DNA of 64,000 bases from Nakazawaea peltata (Eukaryota; Ascomycota; Pichiomycetes; Alaninales; Pachysolenaceae), in contig BCGQ01000004.1 in the NCBI GenBank assembly GCA_001599355.1, positions 1,123,249 through 1,187,248 of the forward strand. Reading direction: 5' to 3'. The translations under genes were made by a program, and so were the position numbers. Of this stretch, positions 1 to 64,000 are shown in pieces (within the stretch, counting starts at the first letter, position 1; each line of letters opens with the position of its first letter). Below the pieces are notes generated by a model. The model did no database searches, had not been told where the DNA came from, and was given only the letters and a program-made list of their open reading frames with translations.

Positions 1-1137
1 CTCGGCACTCTCCAACTCTCTTAAGTAAGAAGCAACACTGATCTTACCAGAAGAGATCTCTTGGTCTCTCAAGAGAGCGGCTCTCAATAAATCTGGTTGT
101 TGGAACTCCTCCAAAGAAGATCTGGTCAACAATCTGTAACCTCTTCTGATCAAGGTACCAGCTCCGGAATCGGTGAATAATTCCTTTTGCAAGTCATCAA
201 CATCAATGATAGCAACAGAAGAAGATCTAGGCAAGTGGATCAATAAGTCTCTGATTTCCTTGATCTTCAATTTAGTACCGTATTTGACCCAACTTTCCTT
301 CATCAAGTCGTCATACTCCTCATCTAAGTTGATAGTAGAAACCTTCTCACCGGTGTTACCGTTAATGATACCTCCCTTCTCGTTCAAGTAGACAATCTTC
401 AAAGGTTCGAAGACTCTAGCCAATTCACCAGCAGCAACGTCGGCATTGACATTCAAGATTTGACCAGATGGAGTCTCAGCCAAAGAGGTCAAAATAGGTA
501 AAGCACCCAGAGCAATAGCAGCTTCAACTGGAGCCTTGTTAACAGAGGTGATGTTTCCTACCAACTTGTACTTATCCTTGTCGAGGTAGTCGGCACTGAA
601 GACACCAGCAGTCACAGGTCTAGCACGGACACCCATCTTCTCCAAAGCAGTGACCAACTTCAAGTTCTGCTCCAAGAAACACTTTCTAACCACAGACATG
701 GTCTTCTCGTCAGTGATTCTGATACCATCTGAGTAATCTGGCTCGACACCTTCAGCCTCCAATAACTCGTTAATTTGAGGTCCGGTACCGTGTAAAACAA
801 TTGGATACAAACCAACGTGGTACAAAAAGGCCAAACAAGAAGCCAACTCAGGTAATTGCTGGGTGATAATGGCACCACCAACCTTAATAACAGCAAACTG
901 TTGTTGGGAAACAGAAGTGAAGTACTTCAAGTATTGTTCAACCTCTCTCTTGGATCCAATGTTGTTCAACAATTGAACAACAGTAGATCTAGTAGAGTAG
1001 AGTCTGATGTATTGCAGTTGAGATGGGGCCGCAGTCTTAGTCGAAACACCAGCAACCAAAGAGCTGGTCTGGGCCGATTTAAGGGCTTGTTGTCTCAATC
1101 TTCTCGAAACAGCAGATCTAGCACAGTTTCTCAACAT
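1..1137 (-). CDS. ARG5,6: Acetylglutamate kinase / N-acetyl-gamma-glutamyl-phosphate reductase, N-terminal part (runs off window start)
   Basis: The first 379 codons of the bifunctional mitochondrial arginine-pathway enzyme are visible. The kinase domain phosphorylates N-acetylglutamate; the reductase half lies outside the window. The ATG at 1137 opens an Arg/Ser/Ala-rich, acid-poor leader typical of a mitochondrial presequence. The kinase part shows [43 protein letters not shown] and the stretch around [16 protein letters not shown], all close to S. cerevisiae Arg5,6. The CTG at residue 210 (508-510) falls in AIA[13 protein letters not shown], where the family has Ala. A perfect Gcn4-type TGAGTCA lies about 146 bp upstream, fitting general amino-acid control. 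Very sure of identity; the gene is partial only because the window ends. Confidence 0.96.
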
Positions 1138-2188
1138 ATTCGAATATCGATCAAATAAAGATTCAATCCCTTCTACTTACTCCAATATATCTATAAAAAT
1201 TTTCCAGCAAATTGTGCTCCATAATAAGTGACTGAAAACAAAAAAATTTTTCATTAAAATCTCTCAAAGAGGATTGGGAGGATGAGTCAAGGAGAATAGC
1301 AAGTTGGTAGGGTGGGTGAAAGATGGTGAATTTTTATGGGAAGAAGTCGAGATGTTTATAAATGGTGGTGGTTCTGGAATTACTTGTTTTTACAGTTATA
1401 TCTATTTTAGTTCTCATAATATCTACCCCTATTCTACTCTTTCTCCATAAAATCCTCCCTGCCTTATCGCTGTAAAGGGAACACCAAAGCGCTTGATTGC
1501 ATCACGACACCGCGGTTTGCCTATTTGGGTATTTGTTGAATATACACGACTTTCGGGTAAAAGGACTGGTGTAGAGAGGGCTAGCCGCGCAAAATATCAT
1601 AGAAAAGACTAGTGCAGAAAACGATCAAAGAAAAGATTGGCGCAGAGTTTGGTCTAGTCAAAATACTAGGCAAAATATTAGGGGAGAAATTGAAGGAAAG
1701 ATGAGTAGTAATCAGTCGAGAGTAAGTATTTTCGCGTAAATATGTTGAGATATCAACTTGAGAGCATCTTTGGATATCATTTGTCAATTCAGCTAATTCA
1801 AACTAATTTTGATTTATATTTTATTTATCCTAAATTTTTCAATATCTTGTGTACTTAGTATTATTCTAGTATGAGTTCATACAAGAGGTATATTTATTCT
1901 CCCTTTCGTTTGTACTATTTATTACTCAATTCTATAATCCTACACTACTCAGCTTCAACTGGAAAATCAATTTCCTTGAACCATCACCTCCTCCAATTGA
2001 CCCTGTAATTACCCCCAATCACCCTATCTCTACTCTACCTCAATTCTCCTCAGCAATTTACGAATTTAATCAAATTTTCGCCTTTGCTCTCCCTTCGCCT
2101 CTGCCTTTGCCTTCAAACAAAAATTCAGCTCGATGGGCATTGAAAACCACCTTTCTTAATTACGTTATATACCGCTGATAGAACTACC
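1138..2188. other. Intergenic region, ARG5,6 / FIS1 divergent promoters
   Basis: About 1 kb between divergent genes. Apart from the TGAGTCA site I see no tRNA, repeat or convincing reading frame. A 68-codon frame at 1581-1787 has no recognisable composition or motif. Confidence 0.6.
1283..1289. promoter_or_regulatory. Gcn4-type site TGAGTCA upstream of ARG5,6
   Basis: A perfect TGAGTCA heptamer sits about 146 bp upstream of the ARG5,6 start. Gcn4 binds TGA(C/G)TCA and drives arginine genes in yeasts. The function here is inferred from position only. Confidence 0.6.
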
Positions 2189-2725
2189 ATGTCATCATCA
2201 AAATTGAAATACCTTCCTCTGTTAGACGACTTGAATACTCCACTCTCACCTGCTCAATTGGACGTGTTGTACGACAAAGTACAAGAAGAGCAACCCTCTC
2301 CTTCAATCCAGACAGAGTTTAACTATGCTTGGGGATTAATCAAATCTAATCAGAAAAGCGAGGTTAAACAAGGAATAGAGATCTTAGTCAAGATCTTCAA
2401 GACTTCGCCCCAAAGGAGACGTGAATGTTTATACTACTTGAGTTTGGGGTTCTACAAAATCAATGAATTACAAGACCTGAGGAAATACGTGGAGCTGCTT
2501 TTGCAACATGAACCGGACAATTTACAAGCGGTTCAATTGAAGAGTTGCATTGAAGACAAGATAGCTAAAGGTGAGTACCAAAAGAATTTGAATCTACACT
2601 TCTTTCCAAAAAATTTCATACTAACTCAAATTATAGATGGTTTGGTGGGTATTGCGCTTGTAAGTGGGGCTGTGGGTCTTGGTGCAGCCGCATTGAGTTT
2701 CTTACTCAGGAACAAGAAACGTTAA
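2189..2725 (+). CDS. FIS1: Mitochondrial fission protein Fis1 (with one short intron)
   Basis: Tail-anchored outer-membrane adaptor that recruits the fission machinery (Dnm1 through Mdv1). It has a TPR-like helical bundle (FNYAWGLIKS, RRRECLYYLSLGFYKINE, LLQHEPDNLQAVQLKSCIEDKI) followed by one C-terminal membrane helix and a basic RNKKR tail. Read straight through, the frame gives 178 residues, with an odd 22-residue insert just before the membrane helix. That insert is exactly the product of a 66-nt intron (2571-2636) with GTGAGT, TACTAAC and TAG. Splicing gives 156 residues, the usual Fis1 size, with the junction IAK-DGLVGIALVSG. The coding sequence is therefore best read as 2189-2570 joined to 2637-2725. 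Confidence 0.95.
   Translation: MSSSKLKYLPLLDDLNTPLSPAQLDVLYDKVQEEQPSPSIQTEFNYAWGLIKSNQKSEVKQGIEILVKIFKTSPQRRRECLYYLSLGFYKINELQDLRKYVELLLQHEPDNLQAVQLKSCIEDKIAKGEYQKNLNLHFFPKNFILTQIIDGLVGIALVSGAVGLGAAALSFLLRNKKR
2571..2636 (+). other. Intron in FIS1, stop-free and divisible by three
   Basis: 5' splice site GTGAGT at 2571, branch point TACTAAC at 2619-2625, 3' splice site TAG ending at 2636. Length is 66 nt, phase 1, with no in-frame stop, so unspliced RNA stays open. Removing it restores normal Fis1 length and the TPR-to-membrane-helix junction. Confidence 0.92.
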
Positions 2726-62985: not shown

Positions 62986-63300
62986 TAACATGCACCCCAT
63001 GGTTTTCGGTTCTGCTATTTAATAAATTCATTTTGTGTCATTAATCTTAGCTATGTAGTGGTAGATTTTTCTAACTCGTTCCGAAGTGTTTTCCCGAAGT
63101 GCTCCCCCCTTTCCGCGTCTACCATCCGCGTCTCCTCCATTTTTCATAGGTGAAGAAGAGCAAATATGAGCAAATAACGAAAAAGTAAATCTTAACTAAC
63201 TGTGGAAGCGCTTGGTCGAGAGATCGAGGAAGTCAGATTGGGGGCCCGGTAGATGTACTTGAGAGGAGAGAGGAAAAGGATCTGATTGGGGAAGATTAAT
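62986..63300. other. Intergenic region before the last gene
   Basis: 315 bp: terminator-like AT sequence, then the promoter of the partial gene. Nothing else seen. Confidence 0.5.
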
Positions 63301-64000
63301 ATGTCTACGGAGACAAGAACTACGACGCGGTCCAAGAGATTGAATGAGCTGCTGCTGCTGGCCCTGCTGGCTCTGCTGGCCCTGCAACAACAGACCGACT
63401 CTCTGGAATCGGACAAGCTCCATGAGGTGGAGAAGGTGATACTAGAGAATAAATTACAGAACGAGATGTTGCAGCGAGAGATCAGTCATATGGATCAACA
63501 GATATCATCAGTGGGGGAGACTTCCCTGATAATGAGACAAGAATATGAACAATCCATAGTGGAGATCCAGAACACAAAATTGGAGAACAAACAGTTGATG
63601 AATGAGGTCTACAAATTGGATCAGTTTATTACTGGATCTGTACAGACGTTGAACATGCGATTGGACGAGATGTTGGCCGATGCCAGAAATCTGAATGTGG
63701 ATAATATAGGTCAAAATGTGCAATTGGTGTTAGACCATTTCATTCAAACTAAGTTTGGAGCCGAGTTAGCGCCGGAAACCGAATCTGGTGACGAAGAGGA
63801 CGAGATGGACGAAGATGAAAGTGAAGAAGAAATTGAACAAGAAGATGAAGATCAATCAGAAGAGGAAGAGGAGAATGAAGTGTCAGCTCCGGAGACTCCT
63901 CAACAAAATGGACATCATAATAATTCTGGTGGTGGATATCACCGTGGTTTCCAACCGGAAATAAATCAAGAAGAGATCCAAGGCTTATTGCAAAAATATG
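63301..64000 (+). CDS. Probable fifth GCR1-family-type coiled-coil protein (runs off window end)
   Basis: 233 codons are visible from the ATG at 63301 and the frame is still open at 64000. A basic N-terminus (TRTTTRSKRLNE) is followed by 12 codons of CTG, GCC and GCT (63349-63384), then QQQ. Next comes a long coiled coil including SIVEIQNTKLENKQLMNEVYKL and LNMRLDEMLADARN, then a strongly acidic Glu/Asp block and a Gly/His/Asn linker. Coiled coil plus acid block is the layout of paralogues A and C, whose DNA-binding domain is C-terminal and would lie outside the window here. Membership is therefore inferred. Read with CTG as Ala the 12-codon tract is polyalanine. Confidence 0.6.
   Translation, partial: MSTETRTTTRSKRLNELLLLALLALLALQQQTDSLESDKLHEVEKVILENKLQNEMLQREISHMDQQISSVGETSLIMRQEYEQSIVEIQNTKLENKQLMNEVYKLDQFITGSVQTLNMRLDEMLADARNLNVDNIGQNVQLVLDHFIQTKFGAELAPETESGDEEDEMDEDESEEEIEQEDEDQSEEEEENEVSAPETPQQNGHHNNSGGGYHRGFQPEINQEEIQGLLQKY
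63349..63384 (+). repeat. Twelve-codon mixed CTG/GCN tract (polyalanine under table 26)
   Basis: Nine CTG and three GCC/GCT codons alternate without another residue. Under the standard code it would be Leu with scattered Ala at the N-terminus of a coiled-coil regulator; under the CUG-Ala code it is pure Ala followed by Gln, a common transcription-factor homopolymer. Confidence 0.85.

Follow-up and report, generated by a model that had tools for sequence, protein, structure and literature searches.

The question raised by this locus is which amino acid CUG specifies in the nuclear genes of a 64,000-nucleotide stretch of Nakazawaea peltata DNA (assembly GCA_001599355.1, contig BCGQ01000004.1, forward-strand positions 1,123,249 to 1,187,248), hereafter the window, within which all coordinates below are given. 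We are close to certain that the window comes from the nuclear genome of a budding yeast in which CUG is read as alanine, the code listed as table 26 by the National Center for Biotechnology Information. The window spans 64 kilobases, has a guanine plus cytosine content of 40.2% and carries nuclear budding-yeast genes, including ARG5,6, FIS1, KEX1, GPH1, a tRNA-type adenosine deaminase (TAD1), a folylpolyglutamate-synthase-like gene, RNR2, a kinase, an RPN8-type gene, COX10, a YVH1-type gene, old yellow enzyme (OYE), xanthine dehydrogenase (XDH), catalase, SUA5, SPF1 and a PMR1-like P-type Ca-ATPase; some of these names are presumptive. The 29 genes that read without an in-frame stop comprise 14,818 codons including stops, and 244 of these are CTG (16.5 per 1000 codons). 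Read as alanine, CTG would supply 244 of the 1012 alanine codons in these genes.

CTG codons behave as alanine codons across whole genes

A first-pass annotation of the window had claimed that CTG means alanine throughout, pointing to selected sites. As these sites were hand-picked, we tested the CTG codons of eight whole genes. Searches were run with proteins in which every CTG residue was masked as X, so that CTG could not steer the choice of homologues, which were prokaryotic or viral. At most 30 loci were taken per genome search (at most 8 in one PMR1-like search), giving the best 80 of 594 loci for GPH1, the best 80 of 587 environmental viral loci for RNR2, 36 loci for the PMR1-like gene, 30 each for XDH, catalase, OYE and SUA5, and 24 for COX10. 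All 340 loci yielded a usable segment, and removal of sequences more than 90% identical left 58 for GPH1, 34 for PMR1, 26 for XDH, 30 for catalase, 29 for OYE, 22 for COX10, 25 for SUA5 and 21 for RNR2. For each gene a profile was built that excluded the window sequence; for each sense codon, all occurrences were then swapped to each of the 20 residues and scored. The eight genes contain 87 CTG codons, 60 of which are covered by the profile alignments (GPH1 19 of 22, XDH 10 of 20, from the C-terminal half only, COX10 8 of 16, SUA5 3 of 8, RNR2 1 of 2, and all of those in the other genes).

Alanine ranked first of the 20 residues for CTG in all eight homologue sets, bearing out the original claim. 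Summed over genes, it led threonine by 52.9 bits, serine by 53.7, glutamine by 68.5 and leucine, which ranked 16th of 20, by 111.9. Site by site, alanine scored above leucine at 54 of the 60 covered codons and above serine at 47, and was the best of all residues at 23. The tabulation of commonest residues that had been proposed alongside the claim agrees: alanine is commonest in 31 of 60 columns, leucine in 5 and serine in 2. The same procedure returned the standard meaning for 55 of the 60 other sense codons. The five exceptions, which count as undecided, are CTC (18 occurrences), ACG (10), CGG (3), CTA (1) and CGC (1), with the wrong residue ahead by at most 2.2 bits; a reassignment of CTC, for which methionine exceeded leucine by that margin, was considered and discounted as noise between hydrophobic residues.

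The alanine call was stable under resampling. Alanine won in all 10,000 site bootstraps and always ranked first when single genes were left out, with a margin of 35.8 to 51.4 bits. When codons were drawn at random in equal number per gene, draws of ordinary leucine codons were called leucine 4331 times and methionine 669 times out of 5000, draws of GCN codons were called alanine 5000 times out of 5000, and draws of any other codons were called methionine 1845 times, threonine 1328, glutamine 880 and alanine 739. The score of alanine minus leucine for CTG in this comparison is +114.1 bits; it reached at most -39.3 bits with leucine codons and at most 78.6 bits with other codons.

These draws bear directly on the possibility that the standard code holds and that the alanine signal reflects chance or the reader's selection of sites. 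The listed sites were indeed selected, and in 2 of 61 alignable CTG columns leucine makes up half or more of the residues: GPH1 residue 79, where yeast glycogen phosphorylase (1ygp) has alanine, and OYE residue 26, where leucine is present in 4tmb as well. However, the low rank of leucine over whole genes, and the failure of other leucine codons to come anywhere near the CTG value, leave this explanation with a vanishingly small probability.

Comparison of CTG with GCN columns leads to the same reading of CTG as alanine. No difference is seen between the two in alanine, leucine or serine content (p = 0.24, 0.39 and 0.60), nor in alanine content within genes (p = 0.69), and similar fractions of both are alignable (61 of 87 CTG, 242 of 326 GCN; p = 0.50). 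Columns with at least 80% alanine in the raw alignments make up 15 of 61 for CTG and 76 of 242 for GCN (p = 0.73 by within-gene shuffling), and those with at least 95% make up 8 of 61 and 50 of 242 (raw counts, without shuffling). CTG therefore occupies alanine positions as GCN codons do, across unrelated genes. An apparent absence of CTG from the strictest columns (profile alanine emission above a threshold of 0.5 in 0 of 60 CTG and 23 of 234 GCN columns) was attributed to a gene-to-gene effect of profile weighting, because raw frequencies at 80% alanine or more and within-gene shuffling show no such gap.

Domain scores separate alanine from serine

Retranslation under tables 1, 12 and 26 had been suggested as a check. 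In a second, independent test we scored 18 genes against Pfam with CTG as alanine, leucine or serine, giving 36 domain scores, a few of which overlap (Hydrolase with Hydrolase_3 or Cation_ATPase, in two P-type ATPases). Five overlapping or doubtful weak matches were excluded: PK_Tyr_Ser-Thr, ABC1 and Haspin in the kinase gene, which favour serine; Kinase-like in the same gene, reported with alanine only; and, favouring alanine, IF-2B of the YVH1-type gene. The sums are 6215.8 bits for alanine, 6151.5 for serine and 6051.1 for leucine, placing both alternatives below alanine, by 64.3 and 164.7 bits respectively. Alanine is strictly best in 21 of the 36 scores and 4 are ties; serine is best in 7 (largest lead 2.6 bits, protein kinase) and leucine in 4 (largest lead 1.0 bit).

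Several gene-level contrasts can be followed individually. GPH1 glycogen phosphorylase (5994 to 8573, minus strand; 22 CTG codons) scores 1042.1 bits against Phosphorylase with alanine, 1024.1 with serine and 998.7 with leucine. The corresponding values are 327.8, 324.8 and 314.7 for KEX1 serine carboxypeptidase (3571 to 5505, minus strand; 12 CTG codons), 316.4, 313 and 300.5 for a Methyltransf_34 family gene (40559 to 41560, minus strand; 7 CTG codons), and 167.6, 161.1 and 161.2 for COX10 of the UbiA family (26250 to 27707, plus strand; 16 CTG codons). In the xanthine dehydrogenase-like gene (32325 to 36683, plus strand; 20 CTG codons) alanine is best in all seven listed domains.

Serine decoding, as in the Candida CTG clade (table 12), is the alternative closest to alanine by these scores, being the runner-up of the three tables in summed score and first in the seven scores just mentioned. 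The two residues also lie close in profiles, as true serine codons were fitted as 16.7% alanine. Yet alanine exceeds serine in each of the eight genes of the homologue test as well as in the sums of both tests, serine reaches one half in none of the 61 alignable CTG columns, and the procedure returns serine for all six of its standard codons in these genes. We thus consider a serine code here extremely improbable.

Individual CTG sites in conserved proteins

The first-pass annotation had listed 16 CTG sites as fixed-alanine positions. All 16 triplets are CTG, in frame and in the named genes, and the top solved-structure match (aligned with CTG masked as X) has alanine at 11 of the 15 testable sites and leucine or serine at none. 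The 11 are ARG5,6 508, KEX1 4954, GPH1 6489 and 6477, TAD1 10951, RNR2 14293, OYE 30960, XDH 33711 and 34995, catalase 38028 and SPF1 48481. The description as fixed is overstated for the other four, because the top solved relative has threonine at XDH 32787, phenylalanine at XDH 32892, isoleucine at catalase 38274 and proline at catalase 38313. At SUA5 44456, assessed in bacterial columns only, alanine occurs in 10 of 25 sequences. The list was thus mostly right and somewhat optimistic.

Several sites, listed or not, fall at positions that are invariant or nearly so. In GPH1 (minus strand), five CTG codons align with alanine in all 58 kept bacterial homologues: residue 403 (QE-A-LE, 7365 to 7367), residue 635 (GGK-A-AP, 6669 to 6671), residue 642 (YYM-A-K, 6648 to 6650), residue 695 (IST-A-GTE, 6489 to 6491) and residue 699 (GTE-A-SGTSNMK, 6477 to 6479). 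Yeast 1ygp has alanine at four of these and serine at residue 635. Also on the minus strand, the RNR2 codon in PE-A-KCFYGFQ (14293 to 14295) matches alanine in all 21 kept environmental viral homologues and in 1smq, the OYE codon in HS-A-N (30960 to 30962) matches it in 28 of 29 bacterial homologues and in 4tmb, and residue 143 of the PMR1-like Ca-ATPase (51960 to 51962) does so in 30 of 33 aligned bacterial homologues. Plus-strand examples are XDH residues 795 (34707 to 34709; alanine in 24 of 25 aligned bacterial homologues and in 1fo4), 891 (34995 to 34997; 23 of 25 and 1fo4) and 1116 (35670 to 35672; 21 of 25), catalase residue 243 (38028 to 38030; 28 of 30 and 2xq1) and COX10 residue 404 (27459 to 27461; 15 of 16 aligned bacterial homologues). 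For the remaining sites the comparison is with solved chains: ARG5,6 at 508 to 510 (minus strand) has alanine in the Arg5,6 chain 3zzi; KEX1 at 4954 to 4956 (minus strand, GESY-A-GQY) has it in 1ac5, a Kex1 chain, and also in 7kdv and 4mws, both chains of lysosomal protective protein; TAD1 at 10951 to 10953 (minus strand, PCGD-A-SM) has it in the editase chain 1zy7, this gene being used for the PCGDA site only because its alignment is weak elsewhere; and SPF1 residue 978 (48481 to 48483, plus strand) has it in 9s5t, in a weakly aligned region.

A count by eye over the eight best solved-structure alignments (GPH1, KEX1, catalase, RNR2, OYE, SPF1, ARG5,6 and part of XDH) gave 25 alanine, 6 serine, 3 leucine and 31 other residues in 65 CTG columns, the leucines being at GPH1 809, KEX1 254 and OYE 26. 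The count leaves aside CTG codons outside the alignments (KEX1 34, 517 and 576, ARG5,6 42, XDH 15 and 213), one in a gapped stretch (XDH 650) and those in the remaining part of XDH (1116 and beyond).

Completeness of the change and points against it

Decoding could also be ambiguous, with CUG read mostly as alanine and partly as leucine or serine, as reported for some Ascoidea yeasts. Column tests show where CTG is tolerated rather than which residue each ribosome inserts, and misreading of a few per cent would be invisible to them. Additionally, work with de novo peptides pointed to 10% leucine in Pachysolen, a figure that a later paper (PMC8645108) calls mistaken; that paper cites alanine at more than 99% in Pachysolen. 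In the window, mixture fits returned a leucine-like share of 0 (95% upper limit 6.0%) and a serine-like share of 0, with an upper limit of 8.4% that is too tight, since true serine codons came out as 16.7% alanine in the same fit, and CTG is found at invariant alanine positions. Partial decoding as leucine or serine therefore seems to us very improbable.

Some results nevertheless weigh against the alanine reading. Besides the two leucine-rich columns, the domain scores led by serine or leucine, and the four listed sites with other residues, the lead of alanine in SUA5 alone is a mere 0.5 bit over glutamate and glutamine, and the mixture fit is poorly calibrated between serine and alanine. A search for CTG and GCN exchanges among four paralogues with a GCR1_C domain proved uninformative, the genes being too diverged and mostly poorly aligned; within these largely poor alignments the partners of CTG were serine (11), leucine (9), isoleucine (8), alanine (6), valine (6) and others. 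Finally, neither ARAGORN (with bacterial settings) nor Rfam found a tRNA gene in the 64-kilobase window.

A known code and the distribution of CUG

The alanine code in the window is a rare genetic-code change that has already been described, and is hence not new: PMC5951914 reports CUG as alanine in Pachysolen, Nakazawaea and Peterozyma on the strength of BLAST comparisons and liquid chromatography with tandem mass spectrometry. The annotation had named this same reassignment, and N. peltata is classified in this clade, now the order Alaninales with the family Pachysolenaceae, to which, among the features of the window, the code points. A 2025 survey (PMC12322030) counts 17 genomes in Alaninales. 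As in table 26, CUG is alanine, and 55 of the 60 other sense codons in these budding-yeast genes are called as standard, with the rest undecided. The CUG-serine codes (table 12; Ser1 and Ser2 clades) reassign the same codon in budding yeasts and differ in the residue. In a Codetta survey (PMC8629427), 453 of 462 yeasts were consistent with the known CUG distribution and the other nine were undecided; the window lacks the undecided CUG columns described there for some Ascoidea and Saccharomycopsis.

One difference from published accounts concerns where CUG is used. Clades with a changed code use CUG relatively seldom and mostly away from well-conserved positions, according to the 2018 paper (PMC5951914), whereas in the window it reaches 16.5 per 1000 codons and falls on conserved columns at about the same rate as GCN. 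This describes one window and does not imply that the pattern is typical of the genome or clade. Even this single case shows that reassigned CUG can serve as an ordinary alanine codon at conserved positions, a point relevant to the rare-and-peripheral view expressed in that paper. In practical terms, proteins deposited from the window under the standard table would bear wrong leucines at invariant positions.

Codon usage and the scarcity of CTA

Depending on the gene, CTG makes up a fraction of 0 to 0.57 of the alanine codons, and this fraction falls as the bias of other codons rises (Spearman -0.70, p = 1.6e-5, 30 genes). CTG is used frequently for alanine in the window and avoided in strongly codon-biased genes; for this reason the tRNA reading CUG is probably a minor one.

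CTA is nearly absent from the 29 genes, with 18 of 1318 leucine codons compared with 186 for CTT and 82 for CTC. Non-coding DNA, by contrast, contains it often (562 times in 19,546 bases, both strands counted). By eye, the 18 CTA sites are leucine-like. This scarcity might be linked to the reassignment: by wobble, tRNA-Leu(UAG) could place leucine at CUG, and weakening or loss of that tRNA would protect CUG as alanine and leave CUA heading towards an unassigned state. We regard such a coupling as unlikely. CTA is unpreferred across the whole yeast subphylum, as stated in PMC11540330, and a plain codon-bias cause is for that reason more probable.

A possible route to alanine

By analogy with the published clade, CUG would be read by a tRNA-Ala whose anticodon has mutated to CAG, and the former tRNA-Leu(CAG) would have been lost. 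Such a tRNA could read CUG as alanine because alanyl-tRNA synthetase ignores the anticodon. The alanyl and seryl enzymes are described in PMC5951914 as the synthetases that need no particular anticodon bases, and leucine could therefore become alanine or serine. The change in N. peltata is probably complete, since CTG sites show no detectable leucine fraction.

Observations on neighbouring genes

The four GCR1_C paralogues lie adjacent on the minus strand at 52786 to 58579, each with the domain near its C-terminal end (63.6 to 80.7 bits), and represent a local tandem expansion of genes resembling transcription factors. Near the end of the window, an open frame cut by the boundary begins at 63349 to 63384 (plus strand) with four CTG, GCC, two CTG, GCT, two CTG, GCC and CTG, which is 12 consecutive alanines under table 26; the frame has no Pfam match.

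The xanthine dehydrogenase gene lies directly upstream of catalase (32325 to 38810 together, plus strand) and carries a cysteine-rich low-complexity insert after its iron-sulfur domains. The catalase ends in AKL, which we take to be a peroxisomal signal. A Ras/Rab-family gene at 42434 to 43036 (minus strand; Pfam Ras 207.8 bits) contains 201 codons, none of which is CTG. Its listed start is unlike a Rab N-terminus, and an intron with a small first exon is therefore likely to lie upstream.

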